Assembly (NCBI GenBank): GCA_020630395.1
Contig: JAHDBM010000012.1
Location: 11,899 to 46,386, forward strand
DNA from: Flavobacteriales bacterium
GTDB lineage: Bacteria > Bacteroidota > Bacteroidia > Flavobacteriales_D > CAJJDF01
Direction of reading: 5' to 3'
Length of the DNA stretch: 34,488 bases
Below are positions 5,481 through 23,785 of the stretch, piece by piece. Positions within the stretch are counted from its first letter, which is position 1, and the number at the start of each line of letters is the position of its first letter. The notes under the pieces are model-generated. The model was given only the letters and a program-made list of their open reading frames with translations, was not told the origin of the DNA and did not search any database. The position numbers were made by a program, and so were the translations under genes.

Positions 5481-6986
5481 TTGAGTTTTATTTGGTTTAA
5501 ATACCTCCTTTTTTTAATCGCATGTCATAATAGTATTTTATCACAGTCTTCATTCAGATATGGAGTTGCATCTGGAGACCCTAAACCAAATGCTATTATT
5601 CTATGGACCAAAATCACACCAAATACTACAGATTCTATTATTTATGGCAGTTATCAACTCTCAACAAATAGATCATTTAAAGAAAATACCAAACAAATTC
5701 CTTTTGCAACCAATTCTTCAAAAAACTATTGTGTTAAAGTTGATGCAAGTAACTTAACTCCAAACACTTGGTATTATTATCGGTTTATTTATAAAAATGA
5801 CACCTCAATTATAGGACGAACTAAAACAGCTCCAAATACAAACCAAAAACAAGTTAATTTTGCTGTTGTTTCCTGCTCTAATTATGAACATGGATATTTT
5901 AATGTATACGAAAGCATAACGAAAGCTAATAATGTAGAAGCTATTATACATTTGGGAGATTATATTTACGAAATGCCTACTGGTGTTTATTCAGCTAACA
6001 TGTTAGATAGAAAAACATTTCCGCCTTATGAAATTTTAACGTTAACTGATTATCGTGATCGATATGCTCATTATAGAAAGGATCAACAATTACAACAATT
6101 GCATCAAAATTTTCCTTTTATAAATATTTGGGACGACCATGAAATAGCAAATGATTCCTACAAGAATGGAGCTTCTAATCATGATAGCACTGAAGGTGAT
6201 TATTTAGAAAGACTAAAGCATGCAAAACAAGCTTACTATGAATGGATGCCAATAAGAGAAAAAGAACACAGCCATTTGTATAGAAAATTAACTTATGGAG
6301 ATAATATTAATTTACTATTTCTTGATACTCGAATAGATGGAAGAGACAAACAATCTTCTAGAAAAAAAAGATATAGAACAGATTCTACTAGAAGATTAAT
6401 TGGAGACAAACAATTTAATTGGATAAAGAATAATGTATCAAGAGATTCTAATACATGGAATATTTTTGCTCAACAAGTAATGATTACTCCATTTAAAGTT
6501 GCTGGGGTTACTGCTAATCCAGACCAATGGGATGGTTATTTATATGAAAAAAATAGGTTAATCGATTATTTAGTGAATCAACAAATTAAAAATATAGTTG
6601 TACTTACTGGAGATTTGCATTCGGCATGGGTAAATGATATTCCACTAAAAAAATATAAAGCTAGAAATGGTAAAAATAGCCTTGGGGTTGAATTTATTAC
6701 ACCCAGCATTACATCCTCTAGGGGAATACCTATTCCAGCTTGGAGCGTTAAATTATTTAATAAACATGTAAAATATTTAGAACTTAAAAAACATGGATAT
6801 ATAAACTTCTCTATAAGTCCAGAGGAAATCCAAGCAAACTTTAACTATGTTAGTACTATTCTTTCAAAAGATTGGACACTAATTAATGGACCTTCTTTTT
6901 ACATGAGTAAAGGAACTTCTAATATTGAGAGAATGAAAGAAAATATATATATAAAGACCACTAACCCTCCCCTAGTAAATTATTAA
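5481..6986 (+). CDS. Secreted PhoD-like alkaline phosphatase/phosphodiesterase
   Basis: 501 residues. The start must be non-ATG: TTG at 5481 follows an in-frame TAA at 5460-5462, and a signal peptide (FIWFKYLLFLIACHNSILSQ) begins at once. An N-terminal PhoD domain (FRYGVASGDPKPNAIILWT) precedes the metallophosphatase domain. Metal and active-site motifs are SCSNYEHGYFN (from 131), GDYIYE (159-164), WDDHE (217-221), LDTR (281-284) and GDLHSAW (377-383), then GVEFITPSITSS. PhoD enzymes hydrolyse phosphate mono- or diesters outside the cytoplasm and usually carry Fe3+/Ca2+. There is no T9SS domain at the C-terminus and no Tat twin-arginine in the signal, unlike Bacillus PhoD, so Sec export to the periplasm is likely. 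Confidence 0.88.
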   Translation: MSFIWFKYLLFLIACHNSILSQSSFRYGVASGDPKPNAIILWTKITPNTTDSIIYGSYQLSTNRSFKENTKQIPFATNSSKNYCVKVDASNLTPNTWYYYRFIYKNDTSIIGRTKTAPNTNQKQVNFAVVSCSNYEHGYFNVYESITKANNVEAIIHLGDYIYEMPTGVYSANMLDRKTFPPYEILTLTDYRDRYAHYRKDQQLQQLHQNFPFINIWDDHEIANDSYKNGASNHDSTEGDYLERLKHAKQAYYEWMPIREKEHSHLYRKLTYGDNINLLFLDTRIDGRDKQSSRKKRYRTDSTRRLIGDKQFNWIKNNVSRDSNTWNIFAQQVMITPFKVAGVTANPDQWDGYLYEKNRLIDYLVNQQIKNIVVLTGDLHSAWVNDIPLKKYKARNGKNSLGVEFITPSITSSRGIPIPAWSVKLFNKHVKYLELKKHGYINFSISPEEIQANFNYVSTILSKDWTLINGPSFYMSKGTSNIERMKENIYIKTTNPPLVNY

Positions 6987-14181: not shown

Positions 14182-14400
14182 ATGAGATATTCTATTCTTT
14201 TTATACTCCTGATAGTAACCTTAATTGGAAATTCTCAAGTATTATCACCTACAAAATTAATGATTCCTACTTCTAATGGAGATAGTTTAGAAGCCGATTT
14301 ATACTTACCGAATTTAACTGATACTTTCCCAACAATACTTATACAAACTCCCTATGGTAAATTTGGATATTGGTTTAGTATTTCTTCTATTGTTAGATAA
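14182..14400 (+). pseudogene. N-terminal fragment of an S15/CocE-type hydrolase
   Basis: 72 residues with a signal peptide (FILLIVTLIGNSQ) and then the start of an X-Pro dipeptidyl-peptidase (S15)/CocE alpha/beta hydrolase (IPTSNGDSLEADLYLPN, FPTILIQTPYGK). Intact family members are several hundred residues long, with the nucleophile Ser and the His/Asp further on. Here homology stops near FGYW and a stop codon follows. No remainder of the gene was found in the next 1.3 kb. It looks truncated by a deletion or insertion whose right part brought in the two following genes. A short functional secreted peptide is unlikely. Confidence 0.65.
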
Positions 14401-15698: not shown

Positions 15699-16835
15699 CT
15701 AAGGCAAAAAGGAAGGATTAGTTACAAAACTAGAATCTGTTAGTGTTAGTAAAAACGCTTTTATATCAGCTTTTTCGGTTGGATTAAGATTTGCTCCCCC
15801 ACTACCCACTTTTTTCATCAATGGATCAATAGTTGGAGAATTTTGTAAGCCCGTACTGTAATGCTCTATTACTTCTTCTATGGTATTAAATCTACCGTCA
15901 TGCATATAAGGGGCAGTAAAAACTAAATTTCTTATTGTAGGTGTTCTAAACTTACCATTATCAGCAGAGTTTCCAGTAACGTCTCCTAATCCATTATCTG
16001 TGAAAGTTGCATCTAATCCATTATTATGGAAATCATTATCTGTCCATAATGGATTTACAGGATCCCCATGACAATGAAAACAATCTCCTTTATTTTCGTT
16101 CATGTATAAACTAAATCCATTTAATTCTTGGGAGGTAAGCGATACTTCATTTCTTAAAAATTTATCGAACTTACTATTTCCTGAAATTAGTGTCCGTTCA
16201 AACTGAGCTAGTGCTTTCACTACCAAAACTGAATCTATTGTAGAAGTACCAAAAGCTAACTTAAACATATTGGGATAATCAACTGATGCTTGTAACTTAC
16301 TAACTGCATCAATCCAATCTTCATGCATCTCTAATTCATTTCTAACTGGCTCAAAAGCTTGGTGTTCGAGACTATCTCCACTCCCATCCCAATTAAAGCG
16401 TCCATAATTCCATGCTAAATTCACTAAAGGCATTGCATTTCGTTTGCCTGGTAATCCATTTATTCCCGTACTAAATGAACTTGTATCGTCAAAGCTATAT
16501 GCTGGCATGTGACATCCTGCGCAGGATAACGTATTATTATCGGATAAAATGGGGTCGTAAAACAACTTCTTACCTAGAGCAACACCTTCATTAGTTAATG
16601 GATTATCATTAGGTATCCTTGGACTAGGCAAATACTGTTGGAATAGATCTGGAATATTAAGAACATAAGGTGTAGGTTTTACTCCACTAACTGCCTTACA
16701 CACACAAGAACCATCATCTACCCTAGCTTTATCATCATAATTATCGGCTAAAGGATTTGTACACCCTTTTTTTCTACAAGAAGAAAGTAAACTTAGAGAA
16801 AGAATAGAAATTGATATGGCAAAAAGCTTTATCAT
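15699..16835 (-). CDS. Diheme cytochrome of the bCcP/MauG superfamily, MbnH-like (copy 3)
   Basis: 378 residues. Lipoprotein signal (SLLSSC, lipid Cys 20), then a GCTNP...DDGSC linker (25-44) and the two-heme enzyme domain. Heme motifs are CAGCH (105-109) and CFHCH (252-256), with the family block TAPYMHDGR (307-315) near the C-terminus. Family members use the hemes to reduce peroxide (bCcP) or to oxidise a protein residue (MauG, MbnH). The start codon is 1 nt after the stop of an MbnP-like gene, so the pair is very probably co-translated, and that partner is the likely substrate. It should sit in the periplasm or at the surface, anchored by lipid. Alternative: a simple cytochrome c peroxidase. 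It closely resembles copy 2 at 17788-18855. Confidence 0.85.
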   Translation of the reverse strand: MIKLFAISISILSLSLLSSCRKKGCTNPLADNYDDKARVDDGSCVCKAVSGVKPTPYVLNIPDLFQQYLPSPRIPNDNPLTNEGVALGKKLFYDPILSDNNTLSCAGCHMPAYSFDDTSSFSTGINGLPGKRNAMPLVNLAWNYGRFNWDGSGDSLEHQAFEPVRNELEMHEDWIDAVSKLQASVDYPNMFKLAFGTSTIDSVLVVKALAQFERTLISGNSKFDKFLRNEVSLTSQELNGFSLYMNENKGDCFHCHGDPVNPLWTDNDFHNNGLDATFTDNGLGDVTGNSADNGKFRTPTIRNLVFTAPYMHDGRFNTIEEVIEHYSTGLQNSPTIDPLMKKVGSGGANLNPTEKADIKAFLLTLTDSSFVTNPSFLP

Positions 16836-16836
16836 A

Positions 16837-17700
16837 TTAATCTTCTGCAGGTAACTGAATTACGATATAATCAAACACATCTCTACCATTTTGATTCATC
16901 AAGAGTTGAGCTTGATAATTAGGCATTAACATTTGATTATATTGATTTAAATCCCAAACATTAGGCGTTTTAAACCAATTCGCAATATTCATTTTAATTT
17001 CAATGGTTGTATTCACTATTTCACTGATCGTAAAATTATTTGTGCCCGTAATTTTAGTTCTAAAGTGATTAGGATGAAAAATAGTATCTGGAGCAGCTGT
17101 AATTTCCCTTGCTTTTCCATTATGGTAAGCAAATCCAACTGTATCTGTTGCTGTATCTACATACATCCCCTCGAATTGCATATTATGGTAACCTCCTCCT
17201 AACATCATTGGCCAACCCCAATTCGTAATATTCAAATCTGGATAAGCTCCAGTAATATTATCAGCTACATCAAATCCAAAATTAAATGAAATAGCTGTAT
17301 AAACTCCATTATCAAAACTTGTGGAAGGAGAATATGTTAAACCTATTCCTGCTCCTAAATCAACTAAATTATAATCTTCAATTAATACGCTATCGCCATT
17401 TGCTTCGTGCAAGGCAATATCAGATACCAAATACTTTAATTTGCTAATACTATGTAAATCTCCTTTTTGATTAGTGAACTTTAAATCATTAAAATCAGCA
17501 GCTAATACAGGTGTAGCATTATAAACATGCGAAAAATTGAATGTTATTTGTTGAGTTGTATCACAATAATCACATGTACCATCATTAGAAACAGCATCAG
17601 CATCAAAGTTACAAGCATTAGGGTCTGTACAACCTCTTTTATCTTGTTTACAAGAAAACATAAATAAAAATAAGGTGATTAATATTAAAAAGTATTTCAT
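16837..17700 (-). CDS. MbnP-like copper-binding lipoprotein (copy 2)
   Basis: 287 residues from the ATG at 17700; an in-frame TTG at 17718 lies before the signal peptide and is rejected. Lipobox FMFSC (lipid Cys 17), then a GCTDP...NDGTC linker (24-43) with a further DYC, then the MbnP domain (ITFNFSHVYNATPVLAADF onward). The WxW motif is W161-G-W163, followed by the glycine-rich turn and HNMQFEG. In methanotroph MbnP the first Trp of WxW is oxidised to kynurenine by MbnH and the protein then binds one Cu(I). The next gene, 1 nt downstream, is a diheme MauG-type enzyme, matching the MbnP/MbnH pairing. I infer copper binding at the cell surface; this is not shown here. Confidence 0.8.
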   Translation of the reverse strand: MKYFLILITLFLFMFSCKQDKRGCTDPNACNFDADAVSNDGTCDYCDTTQQITFNFSHVYNATPVLAADFNDLKFTNQKGDLHSISKLKYLVSDIALHEANGDSVLIEDYNLVDLGAGIGLTYSPSTSFDNGVYTAISFNFGFDVADNITGAYPDLNITNWGWPMMLGGGYHNMQFEGMYVDTATDTVGFAYHNGKAREITAAPDTIFHPNHFRTKITGTNNFTISEIVNTTIEIKMNIANWFKTPNVWDLNQYNQMLMPNYQAQLLMNQNGRDVFDYIVIQLPAED

Positions 17701-17787
17701 AAGATTTAGGTGAACCAATTAGCTGGTATTTTTATGTTAATATTCGTTTATCAATTACAGTTATCCATCATGGACATTTAAGTTTTA

Positions 17788-18855
17788 TTAGTTGGGATCT
17801 TGAAAATCAGGGTTAGTAATAAAACTTGAATCTGTTAAAGTTAATAAAAACGCTTTTAAATCTGCTTTTTCTCCTGGTGTTAGATTTACACCTCCTTGAG
17901 ATGCAAATTCCATATTTGGACTAATATTAGGAGAACTTCCATGAACTCCTGTGCTATAAAAATCAATAACTTCATCAAGCGTATTAAAGCGGCCATCATG
18001 CATGTATGGTGCTGTAAATACTAAATTACGTAAAGATGGCACTTTAAATTTACCATTATCACTAGATAAACCAGTAACAGCTCCTAATCCAAGATCAGTT
18101 AATGTAGCATCTAACCCATTATTTTGTATGGAATGATCGGTTGTTAAAATTCCTCCATGACAATGAAAACAGTCTCCTCCAGTTAAGCTACTAAATAAAC
18201 TAAATCCATTTGCTTCTTGTGGTGTAAACCCCTCTTCTCTTCTTAATACACGGTCATATTTAGAGTTACCAGAAATTAATGTTCGTTCAAATTGAGCAAT
18301 TGCTTTAACCACTAAAACAGAGTCAATCACATCCGTTCCAAACGCTTTTCTAAACATATCAGGGTAAATTGGATCGCTTTGTAATTTAGAAACTGCATTA
18401 GGCCAATTTTCATGCATTTCAATTTCATCCACAACTGGCAAAAATGCTTGATCTTCTAAAGTAGCTGATCTACCATCCCAAAAAAAGTTAAGTTTCCAAC
18501 CTAAATTCATGATTGGCATGGCTTGCCTGGTTCCTGCAATATTATCAATCCCCACACTAAACCTTGCACTATCTGAAAAACCTAAACTAGGTGCATGACA
18601 AGAGCCACAAGACATGGTATTATTACCTGATAATTTTTTTTCATAAAATAAATGCCTGCCTAATTCAATTCCTTCTATTGTTAGCGGATTATCTTGAGGT
18701 ATCGCCATTTGTGGAAAGCCTTGAGGAATATTAGGTTGAACTATAGTTGGTTCATAAGACTTTTCGGTAGTGGTACATTCTTCTTCCTCAAAATCTTTTT
18801 TCTTACAGTTAACTGCAAGAAAGAACACTAATAATATGGCTAAATATGCTTTCAT
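17788..18855 (-). CDS. Diheme cytochrome of the bCcP/MauG superfamily, MbnH-like (copy 2)
   Basis: 355 residues, lipoprotein (AVNC, lipid Cys 17) with an acidic Lys/Glu/Thr linker in place of the GCTDP linker. Heme motifs CGSCH (83-87) and CFHCH (229-233), and TAPYMHDGR near the C-terminus. The two heme sites have almost the same spacing as in copy 3, and long stretches match it (FERTLISGNSK, RNLVFTAPYMHDGRFNT, LLTLTDSSF). This points to duplication within the operon. The ATG overlaps the TGA of copy 1. Downstream, 87 nt separate it from the start of the second MbnP-like gene. The probable role is oxidation of a tryptophan in one of the MbnP proteins, or peroxide reduction. Confidence 0.85.
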   Translation of the reverse strand: MKAYLAILLVFFLAVNCKKKDFEEEECTTTEKSYEPTIVQPNIPQGFPQMAIPQDNPLTIEGIELGRHLFYEKKLSGNNTMSCGSCHAPSLGFSDSARFSVGIDNIAGTRQAMPIMNLGWKLNFFWDGRSATLEDQAFLPVVDEIEMHENWPNAVSKLQSDPIYPDMFRKAFGTDVIDSVLVVKAIAQFERTLISGNSKYDRVLRREEGFTPQEANGFSLFSSLTGGDCFHCHGGILTTDHSIQNNGLDATLTDLGLGAVTGLSSDNGKFKVPSLRNLVFTAPYMHDGRFNTLDEVIDFYSTGVHGSSPNISPNMEFASQGGVNLTPGEKADLKAFLLTLTDSSFITNPDFQDPN

Positions 18856-19892
18856 TTTATAATTGGAAATTTACTCTCCTCTTTTAAAGTTAATGTTTTG
18901 TTTTCAAGAAATCCATCATCTGTAAGTGTTTTTAAAAATGCTTCTAATGCATTAATTTCTTGTTCAGTTAAATTTAACGGCCTAACACTATTGTTTTTAT
19001 TATCATAATCATAGCCTCCGCTATTAAAAAAAAGGATAACATCTCTAAGTGTTTGTATACTACCATCATGCATATAAGGTGCTGTTACCGCTATATTTCT
19101 TAAAGATGGAACAACAAATTTATTACGATCTTCCTCCTTAAGGGTTATTCTCATTCTACCAGAATCGGTATAATGCTCATATAGTCCTATATTTTCGTAT
19201 TGATAATTAGTAAAATTATATCCCGAATGACATGATGAACAACTGGTTTTATCACCAAAGAACAGCTTCATTCCTTCTTTTTCTTCTTTTGTAAACGCTA
19301 TTTCACCTTTTTTATACTGATCATATTTTGCATTTCCCGAAATAATGGTTCTTTGAAAAGCTCCCAATGCTCTAGTTAACACATAAGTATCTGGGGTTCT
19401 ACCGTAAGCTTTGTTACTCATTTGTATATACCAATCATTTTCTTCCATGCGTTTGACAGCATCCAAGATATTTAAATTCATCTCATTAGAATCTTCAATT
19501 GGCCCCATTGACTGTAATTCGAGTGTAGGAGAACCTCCATCTCTAAAAAAAGCTTTATTGTAGGCTACATTCGTTAATGAAGGGGCATTCCTCTCTCCTA
19601 TTCTTCCATGTACCCCTTTGCTTAAGCTAACTGTATCAGAAAATGCATATTCAGGTAAATGACAAGAAGCACAAGATAATGATCGATCACTTGATAAATT
19701 TTTATCGTAAAATAGATGTTTACCTAATGCTATTCTAGCAGCTGTCAACTCATTACCTTCAGGAAAATTTATTGATGGAAAATGAGCTGGTAATTCTTGA
19801 GAATATTCATCATTTACAACCTCAATATCATTACAATACAATAAAGTCATTGCTAATAAAAAAATTAAAAAATATGACAATGACTTTACCAA
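18852..19892 (-). CDS. Diheme cytochrome of the bCcP/MauG superfamily, MbnH-like (copy 1, divergent)
   Basis: 346 residues from a TTG at 19892. The frame is closed upstream by the TAA of the MbnP-like gene at 19899-19901, and no ATG occurs before residue 15, so TTG is forced and translational coupling is likely. The N-terminus is hydrophobic with a poor lipobox (LLYC, Cys 20). Heme motifs are CASCH (74-78) and CSSCH (218-222), with TAPYMHDGS near the C-terminus. The second heme motif and the surrounding sequence differ from copies 2 and 3, so this is an older paralogue. Its position right after MbnP copy 1 makes that protein its most likely partner. Confidence 0.83.
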   Translation of the reverse strand: MVKSLSYFLIFLLAMTLLYCNDIEVVNDEYSQELPAHFPSINFPEGNELTAARIALGKHLFYDKNLSSDRSLSCASCHLPEYAFSDTVSLSKGVHGRIGERNAPSLTNVAYNKAFFRDGGSPTLELQSMGPIEDSNEMNLNILDAVKRMEENDWYIQMSNKAYGRTPDTYVLTRALGAFQRTIISGNAKYDQYKKGEIAFTKEEKEGMKLFFGDKTSCSSCHSGYNFTNYQYENIGLYEHYTDSGRMRITLKEEDRNKFVVPSLRNIAVTAPYMHDGSIQTLRDVILFFNSGGYDYDNKNNSVRPLNLTEQEINALEAFLKTLTDDGFLENKTLTLKEESKFPIIK

Positions 19893-19898
19893 GTATAA

Positions 19899-20666
19899 TT
19901 AGGGTAATGTTATTACTGACGTAGAATTATTTGCTACTTTAGTTGCTAAAGGCATATTATTCATGGTATGTGTAGAATTTTCTACTTTAAGGTCTACACC
20001 CGTCATAAATTTACCTAAATCCACTGATAAATTAATCGTATTTGCTTGATCCTTAACAATATCTGAGTGAAGTGTACCTTGTACTGCCCTTCTTAACTCA
20101 TCTGCTCCAATATGAAGGTTTAAATTTTGATCAAATACAGCATCATCATTTGTATCAATCATTCCTTCAAGTTTGTAAAATATATATCCATTAGACCATG
20201 ACCAATGCATAGTAGGCGACTGTGGATATAACGGACTTGATAATGGATAAGTATTAGGGTCGGAATGATTTGTTGTAGAATCCATCCCCATGTTAAACGC
20301 TAATGTATGATGATGACCTGCTGCAAGCAATCCTAAATTATAAGAACTATTATCAGGATCTAACAACACAAATCTTTCCTCAGCATAAGAAGCGTTATTA
20401 TCATGATCTAAAAAGCGAATATTTCCCATGTAAATTCTTACTAAGCTAAACTTATAATCATTCCCGAAATCATCTTCATATACATCTCCATAATTAAAAG
20501 CTGTCCCGTTAACATTAAAATTTGCATTTAACACAACCGTTCCTTGACCATCCGAAGGACCATGATGATGATCATGCCCATCATCTTCGGCTTTATTTTT
20601 TTTACAACTTAACATGAGCATTGCTACTACAGCTGTTGCCAATCCTATTTTTGTTATGTTTTTCAT
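19899..20666 (-). CDS. MbnP-like copper-binding lipoprotein with His-rich N-terminus (copy 1)
   Basis: 255 residues. Lipobox MLMLSC (lipid Cys 21), then a charged linker with a His cluster (HDHHHG, 31-36), then the MbnP domain (TVVLNANFNVNGTAFNYGDVYED, FSLVRIYMGNIRF). The WxW motif is W155-S-W157 in PTMHWSWSNGYIFYKLEG, the most recognisable MbnP signature, and a second His run (AGHHHTLAF, from about 116) lies before it. Known biology: the first Trp of WxW becomes kynurenine through MbnH and Cu(I) binding depends on it. The following gene is a diheme MauG-type enzyme starting 6 nt later. The extra histidines suggest metal capture before transfer; that is inference. Confidence 0.87.
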   Translation of the reverse strand: MKNITKIGLATAVVAMLMLSCKKNKAEDDGHDHHHGPSDGQGTVVLNANFNVNGTAFNYGDVYEDDFGNDYKFSLVRIYMGNIRFLDHDNNASYAEERFVLLDPDNSSYNLGLLAAGHHHTLAFNMGMDSTTNHSDPNTYPLSSPLYPQSPTMHWSWSNGYIFYKLEGMIDTNDDAVFDQNLNLHIGADELRRAVQGTLHSDIVKDQANTINLSVDLGKFMTGVDLKVENSTHTMNNMPLATKVANNSTSVITLP

Positions 20667-20690
20667 TATATATTCTTTTAAAAACTATTA

Positions 20691-21650
20691 TTAATTTAAA
20701 TACACCATTAGTCCAAATTGAACTCTATTAATGGTTGGAAGCTGTGTGCTTCCGTTCATACTATTTTGTATTGCCTTTTGGTATTGTATATCTAGTCTTA
20801 CTTTGCTTACATATACATTAAGTCCTACTGTAGCAAACGTTACATTTCCACCTGATTGTATAATAACAGTAGAGATATCTTGTTCTCTAATGTAATCTTG
20901 ATTTGCATATTCATAATACAAACCAGTGTAGGGCATAATATTAATATCAGTCGTTACAGACTGCATATAAAATAAATTAGCACTATGATTCCAAGAGTTT
21001 CCGTATCGGTAACCTTGTTTATTAAAGCTATTTATTTTCATATTCATATTTTGCATTAATCCTATTGATTTATATCTAATCAAGTGATCTATTGTAAACA
21101 ATGCATCAACTGAACCTGTTCCTGGTTGTAAATCTAAATCAACCAAGCTATCATTATAATATACGTTTGATTTTCCAAATGGAAGCTTAACTCCTCCTCC
21201 AACCGACAATCTTTGTGAAAATTTAACATTTGGAGAGGTTACTTTAGAATTAAAAGCTTGATACATCCCAATTAACATTGGATCTCCTATTTCGGTTAAA
21301 TCTGTCATGATTTCTTGATCGTATACTTGGATATTATTTACAACTGGTAAACTTCCAATTAAACTCCATTTTTTAGAAAAATTATATACTCCTCTTATAT
21401 CTAATAAGGCAAACGTTTCTTTAACTTTTTTCCCATAATGATAAGTTTGATTAGCTCCCTGTCCTGTATGTCTACTATATGTTTGAACTTTACCAAAGAC
21501 GTTATATTCTCCTTGTGTAAGCCTAATTCTATTCGATATTGAAAATATGTTTTTATTATCTTCCGGAATTAAACTTACATTCATGTTGCATATATCACAT
21601 GCATACGTTTGTGCACACAATAACAACATGAATAACATCATTTTATTCAT
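20691..21650 (-). CDS. Outer-membrane beta-barrel protein in the MbnP/MbnH-like operon
   Basis: 319 residues from the ATG at 21650, where the signal peptide MNKMMLFMLLLCAQTYA begins; an upstream ATG at 21683 would add 11 polar residues. The predicted mature N-terminus is CDICNM, a CxxC pair directly after cleavage that could bind metal. The rest is alternating beta strands (SNRIRLTQGEYNVFGKVQTY, WSLIGSLPVVNN, FSQRLSVGGGVKLPFG) ending in VQFGLMVYLN, as expected for an outer-membrane barrel. It is 24 nt upstream of MbnP copy 1. It may carry copper or a copper complex across the outer membrane, or support the lipoproteins. It lacks a TonB plug, so it is not a TonB-dependent receptor. Confidence 0.7.
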   Translation of the reverse strand: MNKMMLFMLLLCAQTYACDICNMNVSLIPEDNKNIFSISNRIRLTQGEYNVFGKVQTYSRHTGQGANQTYHYGKKVKETFALLDIRGVYNFSKKWSLIGSLPVVNNIQVYDQEIMTDLTEIGDPMLIGMYQAFNSKVTSPNVKFSQRLSVGGGVKLPFGKSNVYYNDSLVDLDLQPGTGSVDALFTIDHLIRYKSIGLMQNMNMKINSFNKQGYRYGNSWNHSANLFYMQSVTTDINIMPYTGLYYEYANQDYIREQDISTVIIQSGGNVTFATVGLNVYVSKVRLDIQYQKAIQNSMNGSTQLPTINRVQFGLMVYLN

Positions 21651-21705
21651 CCTATTTATTAAACAATTAATATTTGATAACATACTCTCTTAGTAGAGTA
21701 TGAAG

Positions 21706-22104
21706 TTACATTAACTTGATTGTTTTTGGAGGATCTAACAAACTAAGGGTATGTCCCGACATGGGAAATGGATTATTTAACACCAAAGCCATAAGTTGTT
21801 TACGATTAAGAACAGTTGGAACTAATGTAGCAACATTTACATTAAATAAATTCGTTATGTGTGATTCTTCAGATGTAAAGTCATTAGATGAAGTACCTTT
21901 TTTTTTAACTACTTTTTCTAATTCCTTTTTTAAATGACAATTACCTTGACATGTGTTAACTTCTTTTTCCTTTTGTACACATAACGTTTTAGCGATAACT
22001 GATTGATTATACTTAAAATGAAAAAAAGTAACAGACGCAAAAAACATATTAACTAGAAAAACTCCTAGAACAACAAATACAGCTATGGTTTGTCTTGTTT
22101 TCAC
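21706..22104 (-). CDS. Cys-rich single-pass membrane protein with CxGxCH motif, unknown
   Basis: About 132 residues. There is no ATG at the 5' end: the options are TTG at 22113 and GTG at 22104, and I prefer GTG because it begins KTRQTIAVFVVLGVFLVNMFF, a transmembrane helix. Beyond the helix a short segment carries TLCVQKEKEVNTCQGNCHLKKEL, with three Cys and a His, then a Ser/Asn-rich tail ending in LLDPPKTIKLM. Small Bacteroidota proteins with this CxGxCHLxK motif and a Pro-Pro tail are known to me as uncharacterised neighbours of metal genes, and the motif suggests a Cu or heme site outside the inner membrane. The start lies about 10 nt after the subtilase stop, and the barrel gene follows. 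Confidence 0.65.
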   Translation of the reverse strand: MKTRQTIAVFVVLGVFLVNMFFASVTFFHFKYNQSVIAKTLCVQKEKEVNTCQGNCHLKKELEKVVKKKGTSSNDFTSEESHITNLFNVNVATLVPTVLNRKQLMALVLNNPFPMSGHTLSLLDPPKTIKLM

Positions 22105-22114
22105 GTTAAGCAAG

Positions 22115-23785
22115 TTAATTAATCATAAATTTAGTTACTTTTCTTCTGCCATTATCCAACTTAAGATCTAAATAATAACACCCTTTTGTTAAGTCATTAT
22201 TAAATAAATATTTACCATTACGTTCAACACTAATCTCCTCTTGGTATATCATTTTACCTATATTATCGAAAATATTAAGTGATCCGCTACCAACAGTGTT
22301 GTTTAGAAACTCAATTGTAAACTGTCCATTAGAAGGATTAGGATATAATTTAAACGTATTTCGATCGGTATATATATCTTCTTCTAAATCTGTAAGACTA
22401 CACAAACCATAGGTAATCATATCAAAAGCACTATTGTATAAATTAAGTCTTCTTCCTGATACAGTAATGGCATTTAGTGCTCCTAATGGGTCACCTTTTG
22501 TTACAATGGCCTCTTTAACTAAAAGAGCTACGCTATCTGGTTCATTGTAATAAATCTGCATAAAGTTTGAACAAGCAACTGCATAAATAAAAGCAACAGC
22601 ACCTGCAACATGAGGTGTTGCTTGAGAAGTTCCTGTTTGCGTACCATAACCTCCACTAGAAGTGGTAGAATAAATTCCTGATCCAGGAGCTCCCATATCT
22701 ATATGTGTAACTCCATAACCTGAGCTATTTTTAGTATCGGCTCCAGTTGTGTTAGTAACCGCTATAACATAGGGACTTGAACAAGTAGTTGGTATGTCTC
22801 CAACAACATCAACATTAACATTATTATTAGCTGTAGCAGCTACATTTAAAATACCCCTTGATCCCAGTGTATCATAAAAAGCACACCACAGAGGATAACT
22901 GGCTGGATCCCCATTATCAACACCAAAAGAAGAGTTTGTAGCGACAACAAAAGCTCCTTTAGCTCCATTTGTACTGTCATATAAATCTCTCATGGTTAAT
23001 ACATAATCATAAGATTCAATAACAGTAGATTCTATTCCAGATGATCCTTGAACTGGCAAAATACTTACACCTCCTAAAACCCCCGTAACTCCTTCATTAT
23101 TGTTTCCTTTTGCCCCAATAATTCCAGAAACATGTGTTCCATGGTTAGCTTGGTATATCAGATTAGAATCCCAATAAAAATTCCAACCTTGAACATCATC
23201 TATAAAACCGTTTCCATCATTATCAATGCTATCATTAGGGATTTCTTGATTATTAACAAAGAAATTTAAGTCTTGATGATTTAAATCAAAACCATCATCA
23301 ATAACGGCAACTACAATTTTGTCTCCGTAATATGTAGTATCTTCTAAGGAGTCGCTTGGATGAAAATCCCATGCTTTACAAGCATCAATATCAGCTCCAA
23401 CAGTACCTCCTGTTTGTCCGGTATTGTTCATACTCCATTGCCTTAATGCAAAGTCGGTATCATTAGGACACGTATCTCTAGTAAATATATTTGTGTGATT
23501 AAACTGGCTTACTTCGACATATCTGTTATGATCGATAATATTCAAAAACTGTTCAACAGGCATTACATCTTCATTATAGCCTAGTCTCCATATATTCAAT
23601 TTTTTTGATATTAACTTCTTAGCAATTACATGAAGATTAACATTATCCTCTTCAACACTTTGAATTACATTTTTAATCGTGTAATCAGCATATAATTTAA
23701 CTAATACTTCATCTTTTAGGTAGTTATCTTGAGAAAAAACAACAGATCCAATTAAAGAAATAAATATGATTATAGACTTTATCAT
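22115..23785 (-). CDS. T9SS-secreted subtilisin-like serine protease (S8)
   Basis: 556 residues with a signal peptide (SIIIFISLIGSVVFSQ), an N-terminal propeptide-like region, the S8 catalytic domain and a C-terminal T9SS sorting domain (FKLYPNPSNGQFTIEF, NIFDNIGKMIY, LTKGCYYLDLKL). The catalytic triad is D163 (VIDDGFD), H215 (HGTHVSG) and S387 (GTSQATPHVAG), and N284 in VATNSSFG fits the oxyanion position. A DSIDNDGNGFIDDVQGWNF insert (about 186-203) is the usual calcium-loop of Bacteroidota subtilases. The next gene on this strand starts about 10 nt downstream, so the protease may be the first gene of the copper locus; a link in function is not shown. A weak promoter-like TAAAATTG lies upstream. 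Confidence 0.93.
   Translation of the reverse strand: MIKSIIIFISLIGSVVFSQDNYLKDEVLVKLYADYTIKNVIQSVEEDNVNLHVIAKKLISKKLNIWRLGYNEDVMPVEQFLNIIDHNRYVEVSQFNHTNIFTRDTCPNDTDFALRQWSMNNTGQTGGTVGADIDACKAWDFHPSDSLEDTTYYGDKIVVAVIDDGFDLNHQDLNFFVNNQEIPNDSIDNDGNGFIDDVQGWNFYWDSNLIYQANHGTHVSGIIGAKGNNNEGVTGVLGGVSILPVQGSSGIESTVIESYDYVLTMRDLYDSTNGAKGAFVVATNSSFGVDNGDPASYPLWCAFYDTLGSRGILNVAATANNNVNVDVVGDIPTTCSSPYVIAVTNTTGADTKNSSGYGVTHIDMGAPGSGIYSTTSSGGYGTQTGTSQATPHVAGAVAFIYAVACSNFMQIYYNEPDSVALLVKEAIVTKGDPLGALNAITVSGRRLNLYNSAFDMITYGLCSLTDLEEDIYTDRNTFKLYPNPSNGQFTIEFLNNTVGSGSLNIFDNIGKMIYQEEISVERNGKYLFNNDLTKGCYYLDLKLDNGRRKVTKFMIN

Follow-up and report, generated by a model that had tools for sequence, protein, structure and literature searches.

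An operon joining two MbnP/diheme-enzyme cassettes in a Flavobacteriales bacterium

MbnP/MbnH pairs have been called mysterious partners, because most of them lie far from methanobactin genes and had no link to copper. In MopE and CorA, a Trp-derived kynurenine is found at the Cu(I) site and a diheme peroxidase gene is adjacent (PMC3912023); neither protein shows marked sequence similarity to MbnP (PMC3621798). Here we describe an operon in a 34,488-nucleotide stretch of a Flavobacteriales genome (assembly GCA_020630395.1, contig JAHDBM010000012.1; this whole stretch is "the window" below, and its coordinates are used throughout) that encodes two MbnP lipoproteins and three diheme enzymes. The operon consists of a cassette A (MbnP1, diheme 1, diheme 2) followed by a cassette B (MbnP2, diheme 3), an arrangement of the MbnP/MbnH kind that is rare among the loci examined.

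A preliminary description of this DNA, made from its letters alone, had recognized a minus-strand run of seven genes with two MbnPs and three diheme enzymes, and the open reading frames (ORFs) together with matches to the families PF20243 and PF03150 bear this out. All seven ORFs lie on the minus strand and run from 22104 down to 15699 in the transcription order Cys-rich protein, outer-membrane barrel, MbnP1, diheme 1, diheme 2, MbnP2, diheme 3. The junctions are tight, as had been noted: 22 nucleotides (nt) between the Cys-rich gene and the barrel, 24 nt between the barrel and MbnP1, 6 nt between MbnP1 and diheme 1, a 4-nt overlap of diheme 1 with diheme 2, and 1 nt between MbnP2 and diheme 3. 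The exception is the run's longest intergenic gap (17701..17787), which separates diheme 2 from MbnP2 and measures about 87 nt if MbnP2 starts at the ATG at 17700, which is probably its start in place of the listed TTG at 17718. Given the two-cassette structure, this one wide gap marks the boundary between cassettes A and B. A Cys stands at the lipobox position in the N-termini of both MbnPs and all three enzymes. A whole-genome search found no MbnP genes other than these two, and one more CCP_MauG protein is encoded elsewhere. The methanobactin maturase MbnB (TIGR04159), already reported as missing from view, has no match anywhere in the genome (98.75% complete), and the locus is thus not a methanobactin operon by this test.

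To place the cassettes we compared relatives collected by a PF20243 search, comprising 80 neighbourhoods with gene maps and later 80 further loci from named genomes (loci are numbered with an L); MbnP was found in 93 of 100 relatives' genomes searched. A genome of the same genus (L047) carries the Cys-rich gene, the barrel, one MbnP and two enzymes, that is, cassette A alone. Four genomes of a sister genus in the same family (L049, L051, L053, L055) instead carry a single MbnP-enzyme pair equivalent to cassette B, at the same chromosomal place as the window's operon, preceded by the same S8 protease gene. The Cys-rich head gene of L049 is interrupted by several stops (at about 6250-6840) and its barrel is missing while its MbnP and diheme genes are intact, which suggests that this locus can dispense with the head genes; L055 has neither the Cys-rich gene nor the barrel. 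BLAST comparisons among the locus proteins agree with this division. MbnP1, diheme 1 and diheme 2 each have their closest relative in L047, and for MbnP2 and diheme 3 the six best-ranking relatives come from one and the same set of six single-pair loci, which identifies the window's operon as two joined cassettes. The set had been described as doubled; two MbnP sets are indeed present, but they did not arise by local duplication of one MbnP/enzyme set, an origin we reject because the aligned MbnP1 and MbnP2 share only about 19% identity and each cassette has separate relatives. What looks like a doubling is two separately evolved cassettes, each found singly in relatives, brought together.

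The extent of this pattern was assessed at 154 MbnP loci with a motif rule in which GGGYH or GQGYH assigns an MbnP to type B. One A-type MbnP was present at 101 loci, one B-type at 46 and two A-types at 6, and the combination of A and B occurred in the window alone among the matches listed, a limited sample into which some regions were entered twice. Each cassette is therefore common singly in related bacteria, and their union is rare among the loci examined. The enzyme previously called extra is present, but it is no anomaly: the MbnP-enzyme-enzyme arrangement is widespread in the order, and type-A MbnPs normally have the additional enzyme with them. Within our set, every B-type MbnP has a single enzyme gene behind it, and 37 A-type MbnPs have a pair. 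Common as it is, this two-enzyme cassette is undescribed in the literature searched for Bacteroidota MbnP/TIGR04039, where PMC3621798 was the sole match.

The enzymes follow the MbnP types in their own phylogeny. On a tree of 101 enzymes and MbnH, one branch (starred) splits 28 of 30 first-position enzymes from 28 of 30 second-position enzymes. With 187 enzymes (FastTree), 35 of 37 first-position enzymes fall within one subtree, and 43 of the 45 that adjoin a B-type MbnP fall within one subtree of 47; the label "adjoins B-type MbnP" changes 6 times on this tree, against 40.7 times in shuffles. A same-strand diheme gene directly follows 142 of 161 collected MbnP genes. That enzyme phylogeny tracks MbnP type supports cognate pairing and, with the BLAST kinship, the earlier suggestion of separate substrate-enzyme sets.

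All three enzymes belong to the CCP_MauG family (PF03150; 170, 187 and 180 bits for diheme 1, 2 and 3, with a cut-off of 25.6 bits), and each contains two CXXCH motifs. The inter-heme residue, which we take to be Trp93 in MauG and a Trp in MbnH, was assigned by aligning an FWDGR-type motif with solved peroxidases and MbnH, and the assignment leans partly on knowledge of the family. Diheme 2 (17788..18855, minus strand), the type-A second-position enzyme, has solved MbnH (6E1C) as its closest solved relative (E = 1.3e-54); it carries Trp126 between the hemes and Tyr300 in alignment with MauG Tyr294 (numbered as in the PDB chain). Diheme 3 (15699..16835, minus strand), the type-B enzyme, falls in the B-type enzyme clade, has the same inter-heme Trp and Tyr ligand, and bears an N-terminal GCTNPLADNYDDKARVDDGSC module. 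We refer to enzymes of this kind as R-class. Diheme 1 (18852..19892, minus strand) represents a type-A first-position class, the S-class: it keeps both CXXCH motifs and the catalytic Glu, but has Arg at the inter-heme position (codon 19542-19544) and Phe at the position of the Tyr ligand (codon 19026-19028). Across 187 aligned enzymes, the inter-heme Trp is present in 141/142 R-class and 1/45 S-class members, the Tyr aligned with MauG Tyr294 in 141/142 and 32/45, respectively, and both CXXCH motifs and the catalytic Glu in 187/187. The proposal of three MbnH/MauG-like enzymes thus holds for diheme 2 and diheme 3, whereas the residue test rejects diheme 1 as MauG-like, and the three are not equivalent. 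Because it has neither the inter-heme Trp nor the Tyr ligand, diheme 1 most likely performs a different redox job from diheme 2 and diheme 3, which need not mean that it is inactive. BthA, with Ser at the inter-heme Trp position, stays active and still reaches bis-Fe(IV), with the Tyr ligand kept (PMC6405878). One sister-genus MbnP locus encodes a third diheme protein in tandem (L052:8838-10004), whose branch is very long.

Could these be ordinary cytochrome c peroxidases, serving in peroxide defence and neighbouring MbnP by chance? Their Pfam family is shared with such peroxidases, and the Trp and Tyr that characterize MauG and MbnH are missing from diheme 1. The near-fixed adjacency to MbnP, the co-segregation of enzyme and MbnP type, MbnH as the best solved match and the near-invariant MauG-ligand Tyr of the R-class all speak against it, and we consider this explanation very improbable.

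The presumed substrates are MbnPs by family, as had been proposed, and also by predicted fold. MbnP1 (19899..20666, minus strand) matches PF20243 at 103.3 bits (E = 2e-29) and MbnP2 (16837..17718, minus strand) at 92.4 bits (E = 4.3e-26), both far above the gathering cut-off of 27 bits. Sequence profiles see the solved Methylosinus trichosporium MbnP (7L6G) weakly (E = 0.0054), but AlphaFold2 models match it: the MbnP1 model (pLDDT, the predicted local confidence, 89.5) with Z = 17.2 over 199 aligned residues at a root-mean-square deviation (rmsd) of 2.8, the next fold scoring 4.6, and the MbnP2 model (pLDDT 87.3) with Z = 15.8 over 219 residues at an rmsd of 3.9, the next fold scoring 6.3. 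Both lipoproteins are thus predicted to adopt the MbnP fold. MbnP1, of type A, has a His-rich N-terminus (DDGHDHHHG), a WSW motif and the residues H185 and H233; MbnP2, of type B, has an N-terminal GCTDPNACNFDADAVSNDGTC module, WGW and GGGYH motifs, and H199. The first Trp of the WxW motif is conserved in 86/86 aligned MbnPs and one His in 84/86, and by this alignment the candidate oxidation sites are Trp155 of MbnP1 (codon 20202..20204, minus strand) and Trp167 of MbnP2 (codon 17218..17220, minus strand).

The MbnP2 module, a C-(~20)-C element of the form GCTDPxAxNYDxxAxxDDGSC just past the lipobox, has three matches in the genome: MbnP2, diheme 3 and the lipoprotein G000:C59 (L223:3304-4617). 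The idea that MbnP2 and diheme 3 dock through it is not supported, as the module also stands past the lipobox of G000:C59, which is unrelated, and as four same-family B loci have it in their enzymes and none in their MbnPs.

The two genes at the head of the operon provide an independent line of evidence on the metal. The first (21706..22104, minus strand) encodes a small, Cys-rich, membrane-anchored protein of 132-135 residues with the motif LCVQKEKEVNTCQGNCHLKKEL; its start is TTG 22113 or GTG 22104, abutting the stop of the S8 protease gene; genes on this strand therefore continue further upstream. Neither this protein nor the family members tested match any Pfam or NCBIfam model. The second (20691..21683, minus strand) encodes a predicted outer-membrane beta-barrel with a CxxC (CDIC) just past the signal peptide; it belongs to a family conserved in 16 aligned loci, and its Pfam barrel matches are below threshold. 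Relatives of the Cys-rich protein were found in 29/60 genomes, with 21/36 matches lying no more than about 2.5 kb from an MbnP gene. Five relatives away from MbnP adjoin TonB receptors (L207, L211, L214, L215 and L220, where the Cys-rich family precedes the receptor), and these are five of the eight best matches to TIGR01778 (TonB-copper) in the 60 genomes. The plug region of each receptor of full length (four of the five) contains CxxxM, as CTDKM or CPNRM; in OprC, the copper site of the plug is Cys143/Met147, a CxxxM motif (PMC8610252). None of the head-linked receptors reaches the curated TIGR01778 cut-off, a hemin-receptor model outscores TIGR01778 for two of them, and the best TIGR01778 match of the window's own genome is weak (53 bits). 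The genes found around members of the head family link the system to copper, which we read as support and not as proof. Further relatives of the head protein occur with a CDxCG-type barrel, some also with a His-containing lipoprotein (L210, L213, L217-L219). At second MbnP loci of the sister genus (L050, L052, L054, L056), small HYC..CC proteins stand at the head instead, and those of L052 and L054 score above the cut-off of NF047658 (HYC_CC_PP).

These features lead us to think it rather probable that the locus is a copper-handling operon in which two MbnP/diheme maturation cassettes operate under a single pair of head genes. Lipidation of both the MbnPs and the enzymes would co-locate them on the envelope, where each MbnP lipoprotein would be the substrate, diheme 2 acting on MbnP1 and diheme 3 on MbnP2. 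An MbnH-like enzyme would use peroxide or oxygen to oxidize the invariant Trp (W155, W167), and the modified Trp together with conserved His residues (H185 and H233 in MbnP1; H199 and probably H178 in MbnP2) would provide a binding site for Cu(I) on the outer side of the inner membrane. As the companion in cassette A, diheme 1 may scavenge peroxide, pass electrons or perform a second oxidation. The two head-gene products, the Cys-rich protein and the CxxC barrel, would most likely help to move copper inward across the outer membrane and periplasm. A bolder version, which we offer tentatively, is that type-A MbnP is matured by two non-equivalent enzymes, the R-class making the Trp ligand and the S-class, kept Trp-less throughout the order, providing that substrate with a separate second oxidation or electron delivery, and that the Cys-rich head belongs to an unnamed copper-delivery family common to MbnP systems and OprC-like receptors.

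The same anatomy could serve copper defence, with extracellular or periplasmic MbnP sponges, matured by the enzymes of a copper-induced operon, taking up excess Cu(I). The His-rich N-terminus of MbnP1 and the Cys-rich head could bind excess copper, and some relatives (L068, L092) adjoin small proteins with a CPMH..CPTCGM motif resembling heavy-metal-binding sequences. However, the head protein's other neighbours are importer-like CxxxM TonB receptors and not P-type ATPases or Cus efflux systems, and the CorA and MopE precedents are copper-repressed (PMC3912023), which makes defence unlikely in our view.

Several observations weigh against copper handling by oxidized MbnPs. Neither equivalog level is reached: for TIGR04052 (cut-off 140 bits) MbnP1 scores 41.4 bits and MbnP2 has no match, and for the MbnH model TIGR04039 (cut-off 362.85 bits) the enzymes score 245, 263 and 256 bits. 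Identity to known MbnP is about 15-20%, and the second type-A His (H233) is replaced by Leu in MbnP2. No copper sensor came to light, and Sigma-70 and Bacteroidota-type promoters and terminators were no more frequent than in shuffles. As of a 2013 survey, no data tied the close MbnP homologues to copper (PMC3621798). Nine Flavobacteriaceae B-type MbnPs (L142, L143, L146, L152, L156, L166, L170, L171 and L181; e.g. L152:7236-7997) have Phe at the Trp position, which is otherwise nearly invariant, with an R-class diheme gene still adjoining. They are the strongest pointer, at the level of a hint, to chemistry that is not uniform across the family, and because the enzyme is kept, Trp oxidation may not be the sole job.

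The nine MbnPs without the Trp also favour an alternative in which the Trp-derived site serves a non-copper metal or an electron-transfer cofactor. Copper binding has been demonstrated for distant MbnP, CorA and MopE only, and MauG-type enzymes make tryptophan tryptophylquinone (TTQ) in methylamine dehydrogenase (PMC6405878). Set against the MbnP fold match, the conserved Trp and His and the copper-receptor neighbourhoods of the head protein, this alternative seems to us quite improbable, and a copper-handling role remains our preferred interpretation.

Beyond the operon, the abutting S8 protease (22115-23785) has a type IX secretion sorting tail and keeps its position in genomes of the same family; we rejected it as a part of the system, since it adjoins the operon in that family only. 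A 72-residue ORF at 14182-14400 resembles the beginning of a hydrolase and stops early, and is possibly a truncated gene.

The locus and its relatives amount to a natural experiment: a single operon unites two MbnP lineages with the enzymes that co-segregate with them, the two-enzyme arrangement is conserved and the presumed division of labour within it is defined by residues, and the head protein connects the system with copper receptors. Among described systems, BthA of Burkholderia resembles diheme 1 as a diheme protein of the MauG superfamily without the inter-heme Trp (Ser in BthA, Arg in diheme 1); it keeps Tyr-His ligation, whereas diheme 1 has Phe there, and the accessible text of PMC6405878 mentions no MbnP partner. 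CorA/CorB of M. album and MopE/SACCP of M. capsulatus share with the window a copper-protein gene (a predicted one in the window) that adjoins a diheme peroxidase gene, and would also share the Trp-to-kynurenine copper site; CorA and MopE are not among the fold matches listed, an absence that proves nothing. Diheme 2 and diheme 3 have in common with MauG, which oxidizes the Trp of its partner methylamine dehydrogenase, the inter-heme Trp and the Tyr axial ligand; the substrate family is another one, and the enzymes do not reach the MauG equivalog cut-off (182-190 against 443.85 bits). The MbnP/MbnH pair of M. trichosporium OB3b (TIGR04052/TIGR04039, GenProp0940) shares the MbnP fold, the invariant WxW and an adjoining diheme enzyme with Trp and Tyr at the positions of MauG Trp93 and Tyr294. 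Unlike OB3b, the window has no methanobactin maturase and sub-equivalog scores, and it has lipoprotein anchors on both partners, two MbnP types, a second, Trp-less enzyme class, and a Cys-rich protein and barrel at the head of the operon.

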